Shown here one piece after another: positions 1,034-21,707 of a DNA stretch of 22,329 nucleotides; position 1 is the first letter of the stretch, and every line of letters begins with the position of its first letter. Origin of the DNA: a virus. The notes under the pieces are model-generated. The model saw only the letters and a list, made by a program, of their open reading frames with translations. It did not search any database and was not told the DNA's origin. The stretch spans positions 1 through 22,329 of the IMG/VR virus record IMGVR_UViG_3300010883_000558. The stretch is one strand, 5' to 3'. The position numbers were made by a program, and so were the translations under genes.

Positions 1034-2278
1034 ATGAAAAAAAGTTTAGAGTTAAAAGAAACTCGTTCGGACTATGTTTCTAAATTGGAGGTAGTGCATT
1101 CAAAAGCAACTACTGAAAAGAGAGAGCTTAGTAAAATCGAGGGTAAAAATGTAGATAAATACATTTCAAAAATTGATGCATTAGATGTATCAATAAATAG
1201 AGCTGAAAAAATAGAGGCTGAATTAAGAGCTAATGTTTCGGTTGCGGGTGCTCCATTACAAAGTGTAAAAGCTGATAAGAGATATTCTATTCAATCAGCA
1301 ATTAATGGAATGGTAAATGGAACACTTTCTGGGATTGAAAAAGAGTATGACCAGGAAGCTCGTTTAAACAACACAATTACAGGATTAGGGATACCTACGA
1401 TGGTAATGGGTGAAAAAAGAAACAACCCTCAAGTTACTTCAAATGCAACAGGAATGATTGCTACTGAAGTTGGAGATTGGGCTGAAACTTTACAACAAAG
1501 AACTGTGTTAGGAGATTTAGCAACATGGATGTATGGATTAAGTGGAGATATGAAACTTCCTACATTAAGCGGTACTACTGCTGGTTGGACTCTTGAATCA
1601 ACTGCGGCTGCTCCTACTACTGCAAACGATGCTGCAACTGTTGTAAATTCAACTACTTTACAACCAAAGCAGTTAGATTCTTACATGGATATTTCTAAAA
1701 TGTTATTGGCTCAAACTAATGGTTCAGTTGAGAATATTATTAGAACAGATATGAATAATGCAATTGCTTCAACTTTAGAGGCTGCTGTATTAGGAGTAAA
1801 TGCTGGTGCTGGTGCGGTTCCTCAAGGTGTATTTAATGCGGGGACACAAAATGTTGCAACAGGTGCTATGACTTATGCATCTATTTTAGAGATGGAAGCT
1901 GATTTAGCTGTATCGGGTGCTGACTTTGGTAGACTTGCATATATCACAACTCCAAGCGGAAGAGCGTTGTTGAAAGATATTGTTGGACAACCAACATCGG
2001 GAACTAACTTTGCTGGGTCTCCAATTTTCCATGATGATTCGATAGATGGATACGATGCAAGAGCAACAGGAAATACATCTTCTATTGCTGGTGGTAATCC
2101 AAATGGACTTGTTCTTGGACGTTGGGATGATTGTGTAATTGGTCAGTTTGGAACTGCACTTGATGTGGTGGTTGACCCTTACACTTTAGCATTAAACGGA
2201 CAAGTTAGAATCGTTTTGATGTCTTATTGGGATACTGTATTTAGAAGAGCTGCTTCGTTTCAATATACATATTACTAG
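1034..2278 (+). CDS. Major capsid protein, HK97 fold
   Basis: This 414-residue protein forms the icosahedral shell. Residues 1 to about 85 are charged and helical, as expected for a delta (scaffolding) domain removed by the protease encoded just upstream; I cannot place the cleavage site exactly (candidates lie around residues 70-110). The core starts near the segment LSGDMKLPTLSGTTAGW with a following W-x-x-E, typical of the first HK97 strand region. It ends with a hydrophobic strand and FRRAASFQ, like the C-terminal P-domain strand of the family. The start follows the protease stop by one base. The gene is followed by a strong hairpin, which fits separate high-level expression. Confidence 0.92.
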   Translation: MKKSLELKETRSDYVSKLEVVHSKATTEKRELSKIEGKNVDKYISKIDALDVSINRAEKIEAELRANVSVAGAPLQSVKADKRYSIQSAINGMVNGTLSGIEKEYDQEARLNNTITGLGIPTMVMGEKRNNPQVTSNATGMIATEVGDWAETLQQRTVLGDLATWMYGLSGDMKLPTLSGTTAGWTLESTAAAPTTANDAATVVNSTTLQPKQLDSYMDISKMLLAQTNGSVENIIRTDMNNAIASTLEAAVLGVNAGAGAVPQGVFNAGTQNVATGAMTYASILEMEADLAVSGADFGRLAYITTPSGRALLKDIVGQPTSGTNFAGSPIFHDDSIDGYDARATGNTSSIAGGNPNGLVLGRWDDCVIGQFGTALDVVVDPYTLALNGQVRIVLMSYWDTVFRRAASFQYTYY

Positions 2279-2296
2279 ATTGATTTTTGGGAGTTT

Positions 2297-2319
2297 TCGG
2301 GGGGTATTTTACCCTCCGA
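2297..2319 (+). terminator. Hairpin terminator after the capsid gene
   Basis: TCGGGGGGTA (2297-2306), a three-base loop TTT and TACCCTCCGA (2310-2319) form a 10-bp stem with one G-T wobble. Only a short T-rich stretch (TTTCT) follows. It lies 18 nt after the capsid stop, so it is probably a partial terminator or 3' stabiliser of the capsid message. Confidence 0.65.
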
Positions 2320-2523
2320 TTTCTACCAATTTTACAAGTTTTTACCAAATTGCGTGAATTAGTTTTAAGCGTGTTTTTACACGGTCTAAACGAGTATCGT
2401 TGTTCACAGGTATACTTGCATATAAAACAAAAGTTCATTGATTCACTAGGTATAGAACTTTGAAAAAAAAGTTTCAATAAGGGTAAAAAAAAAGAGTTAA
2501 AAAACACAATAAAAACAGTCAAA
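2320..2523 (+). promoter_or_regulatory. Intergenic region between capsid and connector genes, possible promoter
   Basis: No gene is seen on either strand; a minus-strand frame crossing here has no recognisable content. GAACTTTG at 2455-2462 differs from the Bacteroidota -7 element TAnnTTTG at one defined base, and a TTG at 2438-2440 lies upstream, but the 14-nt spacing is short. GTGTTTTTACAC (2371-2382) can form a tiny hairpin and belongs to a motif shared with the region before the gene at 20002. The last 60 bases are an A-rich leader. A promoter is expected after the capsid terminator but is not proven by these matches. Confidence 0.3.
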
Positions 2524-3135
2524 ATGGCAAGAAGTGCATTCATAGAAACACCATCTCAATTGCTAGTTGTAACACTTGCTGAAGCTAAAAAACATCTTCG
2601 AGTTTCACACACAGATGATGATGATTACATCACAAGTTTAATTCATTCATCTAAATTGGATGTTGAAAAATATTGTAATATTATTTTAATGAGAACGACT
2701 GTAATTCAAAATGCAGATTGTTGGACAGATATCGGAGAATTGTATTTTTCGCCTGTTGAAAATTCGGGTGCTATTTCATTAACTCATATTAAATATTACG
2801 ATGATGCAAATGTTCCAACACAACAAACTTGGGCTTCATCAAATTATAATTTCGACAATACTTCATGTCCGTCAAGAATAGGTTTGATGCCGAATGCAGA
2901 TTTACCAGGTCATGCAAATATGTTAAATGCAATAGAAGTCAAATACTCTGTTGGTTTTTCAGCTGCTGATTTAGTACCTAAATTATTAAAACAATGTATC
3001 TTAATTTTGTGCGGACAATGGTATGAAAATAGACAGGAAGCTGTAATAGGACGAAGTGTAGGAACGATACCTATGACAGCTAGATATATAATGGATAAAT
3101 ATAAGATACGAACTATGGGATTACCGACATGTTAA
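2524..3135 (+). CDS. Head-tail connector (gp6 / phiE125 gp8-like)
   Basis: This 203-residue protein matches the head-tail connector family found right after the capsid gene in HK97-like phages: an N-terminal TLAEAKKHLRVSHTDDDDYITSLIHSSKLDVEKYC helical segment (residues about 17-51), a beta-rich middle, and a C-terminal helical part with LLKQCILILCGQWYENRQE. Such proteins form a ring under the portal. It begins the connector-tail run after a 245-nt gap and overlaps the next gene by 7 nt (ATGTTAA). The start has an A-rich leader and no Shine-Dalgarno sequence. Confidence 0.85.
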   Translation: MARSAFIETPSQLLVVTLAEAKKHLRVSHTDDDDYITSLIHSSKLDVEKYCNIILMRTTVIQNADCWTDIGELYFSPVENSGAISLTHIKYYDDANVPTQQTWASSNYNFDNTSCPSRIGLMPNADLPGHANMLNAIEVKYSVGFSAADLVPKLLKQCILILCGQWYENRQEAVIGRSVGTIPMTARYIMDKYKIRTMGLPTC

Positions 3136-12571: not shown

Positions 12572-12775
12572 ATGAAAAAGTTTTTAGAAAAGTATGTAAA
12601 TGGAATGTTAATGAAGATGTTTGGTAGTCGTAAATTTTGGTATACGGTAGTCGGAATATTAACATCCGTATTAAGTGAAAAATTCGGTTTAAACGCTGAG
12701 GAAGTAAAAGGTATATTATTGAGTATTTCGGCACTTGTATTGGGACAGGGTGTTGCGGATATCAATAAAAAATAG
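12572..12775 (+). CDS. Holin-like membrane protein (67 aa)
   Basis: 67 residues: basic start, a first hydrophobic segment FWYTVVGILTSVLS, a polar loop with LNAEEVKG, and a second hydrophobic segment ILLSISALVLGQGVADINKK. The 'RKFWYTVVG ... GQGVAD' pattern is common in small phage membrane proteins next to endolysins. The stop overlaps the GTG of the next gene by one base. Holin function is inferred from topology and position. Confidence 0.6.
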   Translation: MKKFLEKYVNGMLMKMFGSRKFWYTVVGILTSVLSEKFGLNAEEVKGILLSISALVLGQGVADINKK

Positions 12776-13536
12776 TGAAACAATACAGACCTCGTTTGAC
12801 TGAAAAAGAAAATCAGTTAATTGAAGAGTTTAGGGGGGGTAAAAACGTGGGTATCATAGGAGATACTCACGAACCCTTTTGCCTACCAGAATACAGAAAT
12901 TGGTGTTATGAAATTTTCAATAGATTTGGTGTTTCAGAAATCGTACATATTGGAGATGAGGTAGATAACCATGCATTAAGTTATCACGAAAATTCAGATG
13001 GAGCATTTGATGCTATGAGGGAGGCAGAAATGGCTCAGACTGCGATGGATAAATGGTACAAAACATTTCCCGATGTTAAAGTCTGTGTGGGAAATCATTC
13101 GGCACTCCCTTTTAGAAAAGCAACTTCAAGTGGTATACCAAAAAGATTTCTTAAAACTTATGAGGAAATTTGGAATGCACCAAAGGGGTGGAAATGGGAA
13201 TTACAATGGGAGATTGATGGTGTGTTATACGAACACGGGACAGGAACATCGGGACAAAATGGAGCGAGAAACCGAGCCTCAGCTAATAGACAATCAACCG
13301 TAATCGGACACTCACATTCATTTGGAGGGGTTTCATACATGGCAAGTAGGAATGATATGATTTATGGATTAAATGTAGGGTGTGGGATAGATAATTCTTC
13401 ATACGCAATGGCTTACGGAAAACAATTTCCAAAGAAACCGACTATCGGGTGTGGTGTTGTTTTGGATGGAGGTAGGACAGGTATATTTGTTCCGATGGAT
13501 TTGGGTAGTAAAGTCATAAGAACTTCAAGAACCTAA
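12775..13536 (+). CDS. Calcineurin-like metallophosphoesterase
   Basis: 253 residues from GTG 12775, overlapping the preceding TAG. The metal-binding motifs are in order: GDTH (D30, H32), GDEVD (D61), GNHS (N107, H108), YEHG (H154) and GHSH (H179, H181), so the active site appears complete. The third motif has Ser where Glu/Asp is usual. The family hydrolyses phosphomono- or diesters, including nucleic acids. It closes the rightward run before the large repeat region. Its substrate cannot be told from sequence; end processing of DNA or RNA, or nucleotide metabolism, are options. Confidence 0.85.
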   Translation: MKQYRPRLTEKENQLIEEFRGGKNVGIIGDTHEPFCLPEYRNWCYEIFNRFGVSEIVHIGDEVDNHALSYHENSDGAFDAMREAEMAQTAMDKWYKTFPDVKVCVGNHSALPFRKATSSGIPKRFLKTYEEIWNAPKGWKWELQWEIDGVLYEHGTGTSGQNGARNRASANRQSTVIGHSHSFGGVSYMASRNDMIYGLNVGCGIDNSSYAMAYGKQFPKKPTIGCGVVLDGGRTGIFVPMDLGSKVIRTSRT

Positions 13537-13544
13537 CATTTAAT

Positions 13545-14040
13545 GTTCTTATAACAATTAAGAACTCTATTTTTTGTGTTCTCAGAACACTTATTTCATG
13601 GTTCTTGGAACGATTAAAAGTTCTCTTTTTACGGTTCTTAGAGAATAAAAAAACTCTCTTTTTAATGTTCTTAGAGAATAAAAAAGTTCTCTTTTTGCTG
13701 TTCTTGGAACGATTAAGAACTCTCTTTTTACTGTTCTCGGAACACTTATTTCATGGTTCTTTGAGCTATAAAGAACTGTAATTTCATTGTTTTAGGAACT
13801 CTCCTAGGTAGGAATAGTTATTTCTAGGGTATTATATGGTTCTCAAGATTATAATTTTACTGTTCTCAGAACTCTAATTTTGATGTTCTTATAACGATTA
13901 AGAACTCTCTTTTCATGGTTCTTGGAACAAAAAAGAACTCTCATTTTACTGTTCTTTGAGCTAAAAAGAACTCTGTTTTTACGGTTCTCAGAACTCTTAT
14001 TTCAATGTTCTTATAGCTATAAAGAACCTCATTTATTAAT
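13545..14040. repeat. Array A: phased GTTCT inverted-repeat units (23/33 nt)
   Basis: Seventeen unit starts at 13545, 13578, 13601, 13634, 13667, 13700, 13733, 13756, 13789, 13839, 13862, 13885, 13918, 13951, 13984, 14007 and 14041. The spacings are 33 (nine times), 23 (five), 34 and 50 (once each). A long unit consists of a dyad GTTCTTGGAAC, then GATTAAGAAC, then TCTCTTTTTACT. A short unit lacks the central 10 nt, as expected from deletion between two GAAC copies 10 nt apart. GTTCTT also pairs with AAGAAC to give a 6-bp stem followed by T-rich sequence. No protein coding is apparent. Possible roles: protein-binding sites, origin, transcription barrier. Confidence 0.9.
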
Positions 14041-14060
14041 GTTCCTAATGTTAGTGGAAA

Positions 14061-14360
14061 GTACTAAATAAAGTACAAAGTACTAAATGAAGTACTAAAG
14101 TTGTACTTTTGAAGTGAGAAGTACTAAAGTAGTACTTTTGAGGTGGAAAGTACAAAATAAAGTGAAAAGTACAAAATAAAGTACAAAAAAGTACAAAGTA
14201 CAAAAAAAGGTACTTTTGAAGTGAAAAGTACAAGATAAAGTACAAAGTACAAAATAAAGTACAAAATGGTACTTTTGAGGTGGGAAGTACTAAAAAGGTA
14301 CTTTTAAAGTACAAAGTACTAAAATGGTACTTTTGAAGTACAAAGTACAAGATAAAGTAC
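14061..14360. repeat. Array B: 26 phased GTAC palindromes
   Basis: GTAC occurs 26 times in 300 nt, most copies as AAAGTAC or its complement GTACTTT. Starts run from 14061 to 14357 with spacings of 7, 10-12 or 18-19 nt only. Five copies of a 22-nt imperfect palindrome (starts 14103, 14132, 14210, 14269, 14327) have GTACTTTT and RRAAGTAC-type arms around a six-base centre. The minus-strand frame across it is Phe/Leu/Tyr/Thr repeat noise. It directly adjoins array A but is a different sequence family. Iteron-like binding sites are the simplest reading. Confidence 0.9.
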
Positions 14361-14373
14361 AAAGTGATACTTA

Positions 14374-14392
14374 AAGTTATAAAAAATAACTT
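14374..14392. other. Perfect 7-bp inverted repeat at the end of array B
   Basis: AAGTTAT (14374-14380), five A residues, ATAACTT (14386-14392). It lies between the last GTAC copy and the AT-only stretch, and may be an operator or a small hairpin. Confidence 0.55.
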
Positions 14393-14498
14393 GTTAATAA
14401 AATTACACCTATATATATATAGTATATAAATTTAATCCTCATATTTGTATTACAGATTCGTATGAATTTGTATCTACAACTGTAGTAGTTTTTGTTTG
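14393..14498. other. AT-rich stretch, candidate DNA unwinding element
   Basis: About 14409-14435 is almost only A and T (TATATATATATAG, then TATAAATTTAA). It follows two repeat arrays and precedes an operator-like dyad, CTACA-AC-TGTAG (14474-14485). Iterons next to an AT-rich segment are the usual arrangement of replication origins. No clear promoter is seen here; CATATTTG at 14440-14447 misses the -7 consensus by one base. Confidence 0.4.
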
Positions 14499-14531
14499 AA
14501 GCCCCTTTATTAAGTTAGAGGGGCTTTTTTT
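14499..14531 (+). terminator. Strong intrinsic terminator with no gene upstream
   Basis: AAGCCCCT (14499-14506) pairs with AGGGGCTT (14519-14526) across a 12-nt loop, followed by a T-run ending at 14531. It is the best terminator in the window, yet the nearest upstream gene ends 960 nt before. It either stops read-through from the late genes after the arrays or ends a small RNA. Confidence 0.85.
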
Positions 14532-14697
14532 ATACCTGAAAAGACCACTTTCCCACTAAGTCCGAACGAAAATCGATGTTTTGAAACACATTTTTAAAAA
14601 AAGAATTTTCTAAAAACACTTATATTTGGGTGTTCTACCCTAGTAAAAATAAATATATTAATTTGTTGATAAGTGTAGGATATCAACATAAAGGCTC
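14532..14697 (+). promoter_or_regulatory. Leader region with candidate -7 element and DnaA-box-like site
   Basis: No gene is seen. TATATTTG at 14621-14628 fits the Bacteroidota -7 consensus TAnnTTTG but has no clear -33 partner. TGTTGATAA at 14664-14672 is the complement of a DnaA box with one mismatch (TTATCAACA against TTATCCACA). GGGT-GTTCT-ACCC nearby is a short dyad. These single-site matches are weak on their own. Confidence 0.35.
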
Positions 14698-14705
14698 TAT
14701 ATTTG
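14698..14705 (+). promoter_or_regulatory. Likely early promoter -7 element (TATATTTG)
   Basis: TATATTTG is an exact match to TAnnTTTG and lies 33 nt before the amidoligase ATG, leaving a short A-rich leader. No convincing TTG lies at the usual distance upstream, so phage factors may help. Its position just after the orphan terminator and before the first gene of the new block makes it the best promoter candidate in the window. Confidence 0.45.
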
Positions 14706-14738
14706 GACCATAATCAAACAAACAAAAAAATTATTATT

Positions 14739-15674
14739 ATGAACACAATCAAACAAAAATCAAACAGAACTTTCGGAGTAGAGGTAGAATTTCACGGAAG
14801 TAATTTAACTACAGTAGCAAGTAAATTAAGTGAAACGGGTATCTTAGTAGTTGCTGAGGGATACAATCACACAACAAGAGGACATTGGAAAGTTGTACCG
14901 GATGGTTCTTGCTCTTTTGAGTTAGTGTCTCCAATTTTAAAAGGACAGGATGGAATGAATCAAACTGTAACTTTATTGGATGCGTTATCTAACATCAGAG
15001 GAGTAAGAGTAGACAAACAATGTGGTGTTCATGTTCATGTTGGTGTACCGGATGCTACAGGTAAAAAAGTTGCTAATTTAGTAAAGTACTTCGGAGTAAA
15101 CGAACATATCATTGATATGGTGTTATCTCCATCAAGAAGAGATTCAAAGAATACATACTGTAAGAGTGTATTTGAGGGTGTTCAATCAAGAAATACAGGA
15201 AGATATACTGATAATGGAATGGATGTGTTAGAAACGAGTAAAACGAAGTTATTTAACGAATGTAATAAAATAGTAAAAAGAGATGAGTTGAATGGTTATG
15301 GTGTAGCTTCTACAATTTCAGACTTATGTAGTCTTATTGGAAGAAACAATGGTTGTGATAGATACTCAAAATTAAATTTAGCTTCATACAGAAAATACAG
15401 AACAATTGAATACAGATGTTTCAATGGGAGTTTAGATTCTCAAAAAATTGGACATTGGATTAACTTCTGTTGTGCTACTGTTGATAAAACTTTCGGAATG
15501 AAACAAGTTAAGAATAGAGTGATGGATGATTCAAGATTGGCTTTCGCTCAAGTATTCGGAAAACAAGTTGGAAGAAAGACATTGAAATTCATGGGAGAAA
15601 GAGCTGAGAATTTTGGATTACTTTCTAACGCTGAGGATATGTTTAACTTCTCTACAAGAAACGGAACGGTATAA
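14739..15674 (+). CDS. Amidoligase (glutamine-synthetase-like COOH-NH2 ligase)
   Basis: From ATG 14739 the protein has 311 residues; an in-frame TTG at 14703 would fall inside the promoter-like motif and is rejected. Motifs fit the Amidoligase_2 family: FGVEVEF (residues 12-18, E15 and E17 as presumed ATP/metal ligands), W50 to D55-G56-S57 and E61 in 'WKVVPDGSCSFELVSPIL', CGVHVHV (95-101), and RTIEYRCFNGSLD (221-233). The family is predicted to form amide or isopeptide bonds using ATP. The substrate is unknown. A class II glutamine amidotransferase with a closely similar leader follows, and an AIG2-like gamma-glutamylcyclotransferase lies downstream, pointing to a gamma-glutamyl or amide modification pathway. 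The family assignment is strong; the pathway is inference. Confidence 0.85.
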   Translation: MNTIKQKSNRTFGVEVEFHGSNLTTVASKLSETGILVVAEGYNHTTRGHWKVVPDGSCSFELVSPILKGQDGMNQTVTLLDALSNIRGVRVDKQCGVHVHVGVPDATGKKVANLVKYFGVNEHIIDMVLSPSRRDSKNTYCKSVFEGVQSRNTGRYTDNGMDVLETSKTKLFNECNKIVKRDELNGYGVASTISDLCSLIGRNNGCDRYSKLNLASYRKYRTIEYRCFNGSLDSQKIGHWINFCCATVDKTFGMKQVKNRVMDDSRLAFAQVFGKQVGRKTLKFMGERAENFGLLSNAEDMFNFSTRNGTV

Positions 15675-15697
15675 AAGATGTTTGTTTGTTCCACTTG

Positions 15698-15719
15698 CCT
15701 CTCATAGAAATATGAGGGG
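15698..15719 (+). terminator. Hairpin between amidoligase and amidotransferase genes
   Basis: CCTCTCAT (15698-15705) pairs with ATGAGGGG (15712-15719) around AGAAAT, with one wobble, followed by TTTTC. It looks like a partial terminator or an RNA processing/stability element that would set the ratio of the two enzymes. Confidence 0.5.
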
Positions 15720-15769
15720 TTTTCGTGGTAGAGGATATTCTCTAACAAACAAAAACAAAAACAAAAATT

Positions 15770-16711
15770 ATGTGTGGATTAATTGGTTACAACGGAAAAG
15801 ATGGACAAAAAGCAAACCCTGAAATATTGAGGAAATTAATGAAAGCAAACGATTCAAGAGGAGGTCATTCAACAGGATACTTTGATGGAACTTCAATGAA
15901 TAAAGTATTAGGTAAAAGTGATACATTACCAATGCCGAATGATACTGATATGTTTATCGGTCATACTCGTTATGCTACTCACGGGAAAAAGAGTGTTGCA
16001 AATCAACATCCTTTTCAGTATGGAAATGTTGTGGGTGCTCATAATGGAGTGGTTCATAATTATAGAGAAGTCGGAGAGAAATTTGGTATTGAAGAAACTG
16101 AGGTTGATTCACAAATGATATTTGAACTTCTAAGTAAAAAAGGAAGATTAGATTCATTAGGAAAATTCACGGGAGCATTAGCTACATTGTTTACGATGGA
16201 TGATAAGTATTACACTTATAGAAAAACGAACCCGTTATGGGTGGGGAGAGATAAAAAAGGAGGAGTTTATTTTTCTTCATTAAGAGATGTGATGATTAAA
16301 GAATGTAAATTGGATAATGTTTTTCAATTGAAAGAGGGTAGAGTTTATGTGTGGGAGAATGGACAGGTAATAGCAAAATATGATATTGAGCATGACCCTA
16401 TTGCTGAAAAGTATCGTGTACAGAAAAAACAATGGTTTGAGTATGGTAATGCCAATTACGAAAGTAAACCTCTTAGAACGTATAAAAAGGGTGTTTACAG
16501 CGGTATAACTGATTCGTTTGATAACTCAAGTAAGTTTGTTGATTCTAATGAACTCAATTTATATTTAGATTCAACTGATGAGGATAGAATAAATGCTGAT
16601 GTTGATATTACTAATTATGAGCTAACAGATAATCAAGACCAAATGAATCTATTTTCAAGATGTCAATGTCAAGAAACTAGTGCGGACTTGTGTTGGTGTT
16701 ATACTGATTAA
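15770..16711 (+). CDS. Class II glutamine amidotransferase
   Basis: 313 residues starting MCGLIGYNG, so Cys2 becomes the N-terminal nucleophile once Met is removed. The other Ntn-hydrolase glutaminase residues are present: SRGGHSTG (29-36), GHTRYATHG (64-72), NQHPF (79-82), HNGVVHNY (91-98) and EVDSQ (111-115, D113). These match GlmS/PurF-type glutaminase domains, which release ammonia from glutamine. No synthase, isomerase or phosphoribosyl domain follows. The C-terminal third is novel and ends with a cysteine cluster CxC-x7-CxC (C298, C300, C308, C310). It probably supplies ammonia to, or transfers glutamine groups with, the amidoligase encoded just before. The leader ends ACAAAAATT before ATG. 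Confidence 0.87.
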   Translation: MCGLIGYNGKDGQKANPEILRKLMKANDSRGGHSTGYFDGTSMNKVLGKSDTLPMPNDTDMFIGHTRYATHGKKSVANQHPFQYGNVVGAHNGVVHNYREVGEKFGIEETEVDSQMIFELLSKKGRLDSLGKFTGALATLFTMDDKYYTYRKTNPLWVGRDKKGGVYFSSLRDVMIKECKLDNVFQLKEGRVYVWENGQVIAKYDIEHDPIAEKYRVQKKQWFEYGNANYESKPLRTYKKGVYSGITDSFDNSSKFVDSNELNLYLDSTDEDRINADVDITNYELTDNQDQMNLFSRCQCQETSADLCWCYTD

Positions 16712-19278: not shown

Positions 19279-19921
19279 TCCTAACTATTATGCAATCATC
19301 CCAGCAGAAGTGCGGTACTCAGATATCAATCCGAGTGCTAAACTTCTGTACGGAGAATTGACAGCTTTATCTCACAAAGAGGGATATTGCTTTGCTTCTA
19401 ATAATTACTTTTCTGAATTGTATGGAGTTTCAAAGAATACAATTTCGTTATGGATTAAAGCGTTGAATGAAATAGGGTTTGTTAATATAGAAATGAAATA
19501 TAAAAACAAACAAATTATTGAGAGGAGAATATACCTCAACAAATTAAATGGGGGTATCACTAAAAAGAATGAGAGGGGTATCATCAAAAAGGTGGAGGAT
19601 AATATTACAAGTATTAATATTACAAGTTCTATTAATAATAGAAAACTTTTATTTGAGGAATTAGTTTTTCAAGTTGATGATGTTTCAAATGATATCAAAA
19701 AAGAATTTCTAAATTATTGGACTGAACCAAATCAATCAAAAACCAAAATGAGATTTGAGCTTGAGCGAACCTGGGACTTAAATAGAAGATTGAAAAGATG
19801 GGTTTCTAATTCTAAGAATTGGAATAAATCTCCTCAAAATTCAAAGGTCAAACAGAGTTTAAATTCACATCAAAAAGCTAAGGAAATGATACGACAAATG
19901 AATAATAATACTAATAACTAG
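19271..19921 (+). CDS. Replication initiator-like winged-helix protein (HTH_36 type)
   Basis: 216 residues. The N-terminal 75 residues, YYAIIPAEVRYSDINPSAKLLYGELTALSHKEG then SNNYFSELYGVSKNTISLWIKALNEIGFV, form a HTH_36/replication-protein winged helix. A variable linker follows. The end has FLNYWTEPNQSKTKMRFELERTWDLNRRLKRWV, the DnaD-like C-terminal pattern of phage replication proteins. It probably recognises the origin and loads the helicase; no helicase gene is visible in the window. It overlaps the preceding gene by 8 nt. Confidence 0.75.
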   Translation: MDSPNYYAIIPAEVRYSDINPSAKLLYGELTALSHKEGYCFASNNYFSELYGVSKNTISLWIKALNEIGFVNIEMKYKNKQIIERRIYLNKLNGGITKKNERGIIKKVEDNITSINITSSINNRKLLFEELVFQVDDVSNDIKKEFLNYWTEPNQSKTKMRFELERTWDLNRRLKRWVSNSKNWNKSPQNSKVKQSLNSHQKAKEMIRQMNNNTNN

Positions 19922-20399: not shown

Positions 20400-20618
20400 A
20401 TGGAGGGTTATAATGAAGACACGAGAGAGTATCATAATTTTGCAATGATGTTTGGTTGGGGTATGTCTCCTGTCAGTAAACAAGCATCATACTATGGCAA
20501 GAAGATATATCCAACAACAAAGAAATATTACTATCCTGATAAAAGGACAAAAAAGTATGGAGCTCAAAGAGTTGAGCTATTAAAGAATGGTAAAACAAAT
20601 TCAAGAATAAAGAAATGA
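20400..20618 (+). CDS. Hypothetical protein (72 aa)
   Basis: ATG at 20400, two bases after the previous stop. It is Lys/Tyr-rich, with a GWGMSPV motif and a basic C-terminal half (KKYYYPDKRTKKYG). No family is recognised. It overlaps the next gene by four bases (ATGA), supporting translation. Confidence 0.6.
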   Translation: MEGYNEDTREYHNFAMMFGWGMSPVSKQASYYGKKIYPTTKKYYYPDKRTKKYGAQRVELLKNGKTNSRIKK

Positions 20619-20806
20619 ATCCAATAACAAAACTACAAATAATAGTTCGGACTTTGACTGAGGATACTAAAACGAAGCTCACACTCATTAGTATACTGAG
20701 TCGTAATCTAACTATTAAACAGATTGATGAGATATACAATTCAACTCATGTTACTGATAATGAATTTATTAACATTATAAAAAGAAACTATGAAACAGGT
20801 TTATAA
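20615..20806 (+). CDS. Hypothetical helical protein (63 aa)
   Basis: A four-base overlap with the previous gene sets the start. The sequence TKTKLTLISILSRNLTIKQIDEIYNSTHVTDNEFINIIKRNYE is likely all-helical. Its layout could be a small HTH fold, but no signature is clear. Confidence 0.55.
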   Translation: MNPITKLQIIVRTLTEDTKTKLTLISILSRNLTIKQIDEIYNSTHVTDNEFINIIKRNYETGL

Positions 20807-21014
20807 AATGAAACAACATTACTCAACTTTTCATAAATTCTTAAATGAAGAGGGATGGGGTACAATGGATGTTGCTGTAGTATTAGATATATCTGAACCA
20901 ACAGCAAGAAACTATTTCAAAGACCCTACTATTTTGAATGCAAGACATTTCAAAGTATTGATGAATGAATTAGAAGTTGACGCTAATTTTCTAATGGCTG
21001 TGATTTATGGATAG
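20790..21014 (+). CDS. Cro-like helix-turn-helix protein (74 aa)
   Basis: The first start at 20790 overlaps the previous gene by 17 nt; ATG 20808 (68 aa) is an alternative. The core WGTMDVAVVLDISEPTARNYFKDPTILNARHFKVLMNELEVDANFLM reads as an XRE/Cro-type HTH: scaffold helix, 'LDISEPTARNYF' recognition helix and two closing helices. A regulator of early genes is plausible. It is immediately upstream of the AIG2-like gene. Confidence 0.65.
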   Translation: MKQVYKMKQHYSTFHKFLNEEGWGTMDVAVVLDISEPTARNYFKDPTILNARHFKVLMNELEVDANFLMAVIYG

Positions 21015-21031
21015 GTGGTTGAAAAAATTAG

Positions 21032-21039
21032 TATCTTTG
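21032..21039 (+). promoter_or_regulatory. Candidate promoter -7 element before the AIG2-like gene
   Basis: TATCTTTG fits TAnnTTTG, followed by an A-rich leader of about 20 nt to ATG 21061. No good -33 TTG is at the proper distance; a TTG 10 nt upstream is too close. Suggests the AIG2-like gene may also be transcribed on its own. Confidence 0.35.
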
Positions 21040-21060
21040 GAAAAACAAAATAATAAAACT

Positions 21061-21426
21061 ATGAAAGTATTTGTGTACGGTACATTAAAAAAAGGGGGGG
21101 GTAATGATATCTTCCTACAAAATTCAAAATATCTAGGTTCGGGATGGACTCATGATAAATACAGATTATTTACTGACGGGAGTTTACCTTATGTAGATAA
21201 AAAAGAATCGAATTATATTAAAGGAGAAGTTTATGATGTTGATGAGTGGACTTTTATGTCATTGGATAATTTAGAGGGACACCCCTATTTTTATCAAAGA
21301 GAAGAAACATGGATTGAAGTTCCTGAGGATGAGGAGATTGTGAAAGATTATTTGTGTTGGATGTATTTTATAAATGAACAACCTACTAGTAAAGTTGTAG
21401 AAATAAAATCGGGAGAATGGAAATAA
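21061..21426 (+). CDS. Gamma-glutamylcyclotransferase-like protein (AIG2/GGACT family)
   Basis: ATG 21061 is chosen over 21007 because the family begins with KVFVYGTLKKGG at its N terminus and the extra 18 residues lack family features. The 121-residue protein has VYGTLKKG (5-12), KGEVYDV (54-60), and LDNLEGHPYFYQRE (68-81) with E72 as the presumed catalytic glutamate. The family cleaves gamma-glutamyl-amine bonds, releasing 5-oxoproline. A G8 run at 21094-21101 after an A7 run is slippage-prone. It may reverse or complete the reaction of the amidoligase/amidotransferase pair. The ligase is 5.4 kb upstream, so the functional link is inference. Confidence 0.82.
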   Translation: MKVFVYGTLKKGGGNDIFLQNSKYLGSGWTHDKYRLFTDGSLPYVDKKESNYIKGEVYDVDEWTFMSLDNLEGHPYFYQREETWIEVPEDEEIVKDYLCWMYFINEQPTSKVVEIKSGEWK

Positions 21427-21707
21427 AAGAAGTCAGAAAACAAATGGATATTAATATCACACTAGCATTGGTTAAATGTTTGTCAGAACAAATACATGGA
21501 ATGCAATGGGATTACAAACAACAAGTAAAACAAAAATTCAATAAACTTTTGAAAGTAGCTAGAATATATGAGAGGGAAATTGACAAATCAATGGAGATTA
21601 CAAATGATGAAAGTATTGAGAATATCTATGATGCTTTTATGGAATCAATAATTGAATCAAAAGAATTAGCAATAGAAAATTATATTAAAGATGAAACAGT
21701 CAAATAG
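21417..21707 (+). CDS. Hypothetical helical protein (96 aa)
   Basis: Overlaps the AIG2-like gene by 10 nt and the next by 17. Helix-rich: LALVKCLSEQIHGMQWDYKQQVKQKFNKLLKVARIYEREIDK, then ENIYDAFMESIIESKELA. A type seen in Bacteroidota phages without a known function. No catalytic motif is seen. Confidence 0.65.
   Translation: MEIKEVRKQMDINITLALVKCLSEQIHGMQWDYKQQVKQKFNKLLKVARIYEREIDKSMEITNDESIENIYDAFMESIIESKELAIENYIKDETVK

Follow-up and report, generated by a model that had tools for sequence, protein, structure and literature searches.

The window, viz. a virus record of 22,329 bases with all main genes on the + strand, carries at its late/early gene boundary a tandem array of short GTTCT-headed units (array A) that continues into a second repeat array (array B). 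The repeat pattern of array A is real, and comparison with colinear relatives supports the view that arrays A and B, together ~850 bp at the 3' end of the final late gene, were gained by insertion or expansion in this lineage alone. We tentatively favor, as the best of several readings, a satellite-like array maintained as clustered sites for sequence-specific binding. The striking, seemingly helix-phased spacing of its units is explicable by tandem copying and one deletion, and the conservation of a 5-nt core is the better sign of function.

The arrays and their genomic setting

The last late gene, coding for a metallophosphoesterase (MPE), is separated by 1.2 kb without genes from the early genes, which encode an amidoligase, a class II glutamine amidotransferase, a DnaA-C-like protein, an HTH_39 protein, and an HTH_36 replication initiator, among others (Table 1). 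Promoter-like TAnnTTTG sequences are present in the window, and since these fit the Bacteroidota consensus, the host of the phage is probably a member of the Bacteroidota. This small phage and its colinear relatives combine genes for an amidoligase, a class II glutamine amidotransferase, and a gamma-glutamyl cyclotransferase (14739-16711, 21007-21426), a set that possibly constitutes a pathway for gamma-glutamyl or amide modification. An accessory region with small private genes, including one for a 74-aa Cro-like protein (20400-21014, 21417-21707), is unmatched in the colinear relatives. Immediately before the capsid gene lies a gene whose protein has a highly acidic, repeat-rich (GAA/GAT) stretch (130-420), and the length of this stretch differs among the relatives G047, G028, and G001.

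Table 1. Features of the window bearing on the arrays
Feature	Positions	Strand	Remarks
Capsid and connector genes	1034-3135	+	Further late genes run to 11968, followed by peptidase M15
MPE gene	12775-13536	+	Last late gene; its 3' end is the insertion site
Left copy of candidate 12-bp target duplication, AAAGTCATAAGA	13510-13521		Codons KVIR of MPE; 10/12 identical to right copy
Partial unit before unit 1 (AAGAAC...GAAC N12 GTTC)	13519-13544	+	Also codes for the altered MPE C-terminus
Whole insertion, arrays A and B	13522-14373		Relative to colinear relatives; from flank alignment and gap survey
Array A	13545-14057	+	10 long units (33/34 nt), 5 short units (23 nt), one 50-nt variant (13789), degenerate last unit (14041)
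Type short unit, GTTCTCAGAACACTTATTTCATG	13578-13600	+	23 nt
Type long unit, GTTCTTGGAACGATTAAGAACTCTCTTTTTACT	13700-13732	+	33 nt, with hairpin
Array B, AAAGTAC / GTACTTTTG repeats and hairpins	14058-14373		Periods of 7, 12, 19, 29, and 59 nt; five TACTTTTG copies
Right copy of candidate duplication, AAAGTTATAAAA	14374-14385		Runs on into TTGTTAATAAAA, common with relatives
Conserved non-coding block	14390-14530	+	True terminator (14498-14527) at its end; directly after MPE in relatives
Conserved early-promoter region, TTGATAAG...TATCAA and TATATTTG	14666-14705	+	Common to G047, G028, and G001

The preliminary description counted 17 units in array A with 14 of the 16 intervals exactly 23 or 33 nt, and a recount of the unit starts (13545, 13578, 13601, 13634, 13667, 13700, 13733, 13756, 13789, 13839, 13862, 13885, 13918, 13951, 13984, 14007, and 14041; successive intervals 33, 23, 33, 33, 33, 33, 23, 33, 50, 23, 23, 33, 33, 33, 23, and 34 nt) agrees with it. 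Exact GTTCT occurs 17 times in 508 bp, as against 1.8 expected and a maximum of 7 across 5000 dinucleotide shuffles; two of these copies sit within units (13620 and 13686), and two unit starts differ from GTTCT, namely GTTTT at 13789 and GTTCC at 14041. Pairs of GTTCT 23 or 33 nt apart number 13, versus 0.01 expected and at most 1 in the same number of shuffles, and random placement of an equal number of sites yields a mean of 1.0 and a maximum of 6 such pairs. The spacing thus exceeds chance in the very comparison with shuffled sequence that had been suggested for it, none of the shuffles approaching the observed pattern. The further claim that every unit starts with a dyad holds for the seven of the 17 units with a perfect 11-bp GTTCnnnGAAC and fails for the rest; all the perfect dyads of the window fall inside array A. 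Two extensions of the array were missed in that description. On the left, a unit-like tail overlaps the last MPE codons, with a GAAC at 13529 lying 16 nt ahead of the GTTC at 13545; on the right, array A passes into array B within one insertion. The MPE ending (13510-13536) is thereby supplied by array-like sequence and reads RTSRT, versus RK or RKNLLIKK in relatives.

Nearly all genes of the window have colinear counterparts in G047, G028, and G001, and all three genomes lack the insertion; with the array left out, their flanks align with those of the window across the MPE gene, TTGTTAATAAAA, the block with the terminator, and the promoter of the early genes. The distance from the MPE gene to the next gene is 1-453 nt in the 78 related loci with a measurable gap, versus 1202 nt here, and the array was found in none of those loci. 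The ancestral AAAGTTATTAGA recurs in similar form at both edges of the insertion (13510 and 14374), and these copies may represent a target duplication or a chance resemblance in AT-rich repeats. With regard to a mobile element, there is thus a candidate duplication with 10 of 12 positions identical; the insertion contains no gene, and another copy of it was not found. Searches of IMG/VR and 84,980 genomes with the array A motif recovered only non-repeated matches, on four contigs that carry a DNA polymerase gene and on one bacterial contig, all in what looks like protein-coding DNA, and the array B motif had no match in IMG/VR. BLASTN of 13530-14540 gave one weak 42-base match among phages and none among plasmids; perfect dyads across 50 related records amount to three scattered single sites and no array; TRF found no similar non-coding array in the contigs of ten relatives; used as queries, the amidoligase, Cro-like, and tail proteins led to no closer relatives, near-identical records possibly being absent from the collections covered by all these searches; Rfam gave no match above threshold; and we found no description of such an array in the literature.

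The five TACTTTTG copies of array B are promoter-like -7 motifs, and a 103-aa reverse ORF running through it resembles an artefact of composition. A derivation of array B by amplification of the ancestral promoter TACTTTTGAAATTACAAA was considered and is unconvincing (P 0.02, 0.20, and 0.12 with three relatives). Downstream of the insertion, the block at 14390-14530 is likely a conserved phage small RNA between the late and early genes. This candidate combines a U-rich stretch (GTTTTTGTTTT or similar) with the strong terminator, and the same combination is seen in L059, L107, L118, L088, L121, L125, L133, L110, and L159. A-rich leaders immediately ahead of early start codons (CAAACAAAAA at 14719 and 15746; AAAACAAAAAC in G047 and G028) are complementary to the U-rich stretch, and in a control reversed sequences also match a few times; the small RNA is a candidate that may be antisense to the early leaders. 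Further on, the imperfect dyad TTGATAAG...ATATCAA with TATATTTG in the early-promoter region is a possible operator.

Unit lengths, core conservation, and the binding-site reading

The aligned units of array A are 48-96% identical, and unit alignment, unit tree, and TRF all indicate abutting copies related by duplication. As previously claimed, a short unit equals a long unit minus 10 nt in the alignment, with a GAAC copy on either side of the block that is absent from the short units. On the unit tree the long and short forms switch once, all five 23-nt units having GTTCTC and all long ones GTTCTT, and the tree requires 63 or more substitutions, a deletion of 10 nt, an insertion of 1 nt, and a rearrangement yielding the 50-nt unit. 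This amounts to ~63 substitutions versus ~3 length events, which is an ordinary ratio. Judging from the alignment, one slippage deletion between the two GAAC copies would suffice for the 23-nt unit; since this deletion and tandem copying account for both lengths, no selection on spacing is needed, contrary to what had been proposed. The associated idea that the sites keep a similar face of the helix likewise finds no footing, with a vector strength R of 0.15 at 10.5 bp/turn and of 0.01-0.28 over 10.3-10.8 bp/turn; the phasing of the unit starts peaks only near 10.96 bp/turn, because 33 is 3 × 11.

In contrast to the rest of the unit, the core is well preserved: the five GTTCT columns show one inferred change on the unit tree versus 9.5 expected (P 0.0013 after scan correction; P 0.03 for unevenness of the column rates), an apparent conservation that is somewhat inflated by the units having been phased on GTTCT, though their tiling is contiguous. 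The 3' partner drifts from AGAAC to AAAAC or AAGTTC in units where GTTCT stays, and this one-sided conservation favors a sequence-specific site over pairing alone. Clustered sequence-specific sites are accordingly the most likely function, because GTTCT and the nearby inverted GAAC are kept while the rest of the unit diverges. The unit tree and the colinear relatives support an origin in which array A grew by tandem copying of one ~33-bp palindromic unit, one 10-nt deletion between two GAAC copies gave rise to the 23-nt unit, and duplication then spread both lengths. The array would gather a DNA-binding protein, from either the phage or its host, and might, speculatively, have an accessory effect, such as titrating a regulator or forming a local patch of nucleoprotein where late and early genes meet. 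The earlier proposal of clustered binding sites therefore survives through the conservation of GTTCT beyond the rest of the unit and loses its argument from spacing and helix face. The binders suggested with it fare poorly: the DnaA-like and HTH_36 proteins, like the HTH_39 protein, are encoded in colinear relatives without the array, and the Cro-like protein has no profile match and an AlphaFold model with a pLDDT of 54, which is not usable. The occurrence of these HTH proteins in array-less relatives and the restriction of the perfect dyad to a minority of the units also count against the binding-site reading itself.

Competing accounts of the array

A possible, though doubtful, alternative is that the array is a neutral satellite, i.e., a tandem repeat that was enlarged at a tolerant site through slippage or hairpin-primed copying and now drifts without function. 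Bacterial and phage non-coding VNTR or satellite-like arrays are comparable in their tandem copying, their restriction to a lineage, and a variant of unit length that slippage between short direct repeats can account for. The privacy of the array to one lineage, the ordinary ratio of substitutions to length events with a single deletion explaining the spacing, the possible target duplication, and the adjoining of a second, unrelated-looking repeat in array B all agree with such an origin. However, the core pentamer is kept here more than the rest of the unit, and phage genomes are compact, so that ~850 bp of useless DNA would be costly.

Rather unlikely is a role at the RNA level, in which the array would belong to the 3' UTR of the late operon and its unit hairpins with U-rich tails would slow or end transcription, protect the 3' end, or bind an RNA-binding protein. 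Folding bears out the earlier observation that long units form a small hairpin with a T-rich stretch after it: all 10 fold (-3 to -7.6 kcal/mol), and the T-rich columns are conserved. The arms pair better within their own unit than when swapped (+ strand P 0.004-0.013, - strand 0.03-0.12; P = 0.067 with one unit per clade), and this better fit, more pronounced on the + strand, hints at an RNA or single-strand role and counts against binding sites. Departures from the dyad on the + strand comprise 8 G.T versus 1 A.C, counts that are not independent, and the folding z-score of array A is -5.8 on the + strand versus -4.7 on the - strand, with array B forming strong hairpins (z-score -11). Against this, no significant column covariation is seen in the array A units (59 and 157 of 500 shuffles), the short units reach a stem of 4-6 bp at most, and the stems are weak beside the true terminator downstream (-18.7 kcal/mol), which lies in the block common to the colinear relatives. 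The ability to form hairpins is hence less well supported (P 0.004-0.07) than the conservation of GTTCT, and an RNA role for array A is possible.

Tandem intrinsic terminators resemble the array in that, past the last late gene, a hairpin precedes a T-rich tail on the transcribed strand, but differ in that the stems here are AT-rich and weak, with a normal strong terminator further downstream; the T tract is usually 4 nt off, and one array unit alone is terminator-like, and we rejected this classification. A CRISPR array was discarded, the units abutting at the identities given above without spacers, as was a protein-coding repeat, the 23-nt units breaking frame and only a 58-aa TTG ORF occupying part of the array.

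Improbable is the account of array A as replication-origin iterons, to which the HTH_36 or DnaA-like initiator would bind and whose unwinding element would be the AT-rich stretch at 14374-14440. The resemblance to the iteron arrays of plasmid and phage origins lies in many short direct repeats with a conserved core and roughly constant spacing, followed after arrays A and B by AT-rich DNA, and initiator genes are present in the same genome. Yet the array is unlinked to the initiator gene, G047, G028, and G001 carry the same initiators without it, and no GC-skew switch is seen at the array. Moreover, the HTH_36 gene itself offers a better candidate (repeats at 19551-19620): a pair of GGGGTATCA repeats lying 24 nt apart precedes AT-rich repeats of 15 nt (TAATATTACAAGTAT), and the relatives of this gene (L008-L021) have similar in-gene repeats. 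The in-gene origins of lambda-O-like initiators have this layout of repeats and then an AT-rich stretch inside the initiator gene. By their arrangement, the repeats inside the HTH_36 gene are a probable replication origin, and because these iteron-like repeats lie there, array A is probably not the core origin.

Many units of arrays A and B have 7-bp stems with 7-nt loops, and both arrays might be halves of one acquired, transcribed hairpin-array module acting as a decoy, at the RNA or the DNA level, at the late/early boundary, next to the conserved small RNA that may silence early messages; we consider this very unlikely. Very unlikely, too, is a partition or packaging site, for although tandem units each with an inverted repeat share the layout of plasmid and phage centromere-like arrays (e.g., F sopC, parC, and alpS), the scanned proteins of the window, a fragment record, include no partition gene, the spacing is explained by unit duplication, the array is absent in relatives, and it lies ~11 kb downstream of the capsid gene, which probably sets it apart from the terminase, the usual neighbor of pac/cos sites.

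Should the array bind a protein, as in the binding-site reading that we tentatively prefer, this phage would have recently acquired a regulatory or nucleoprotein element within a group that is otherwise colinear, and the array-less relatives provide natural controls for comparison.
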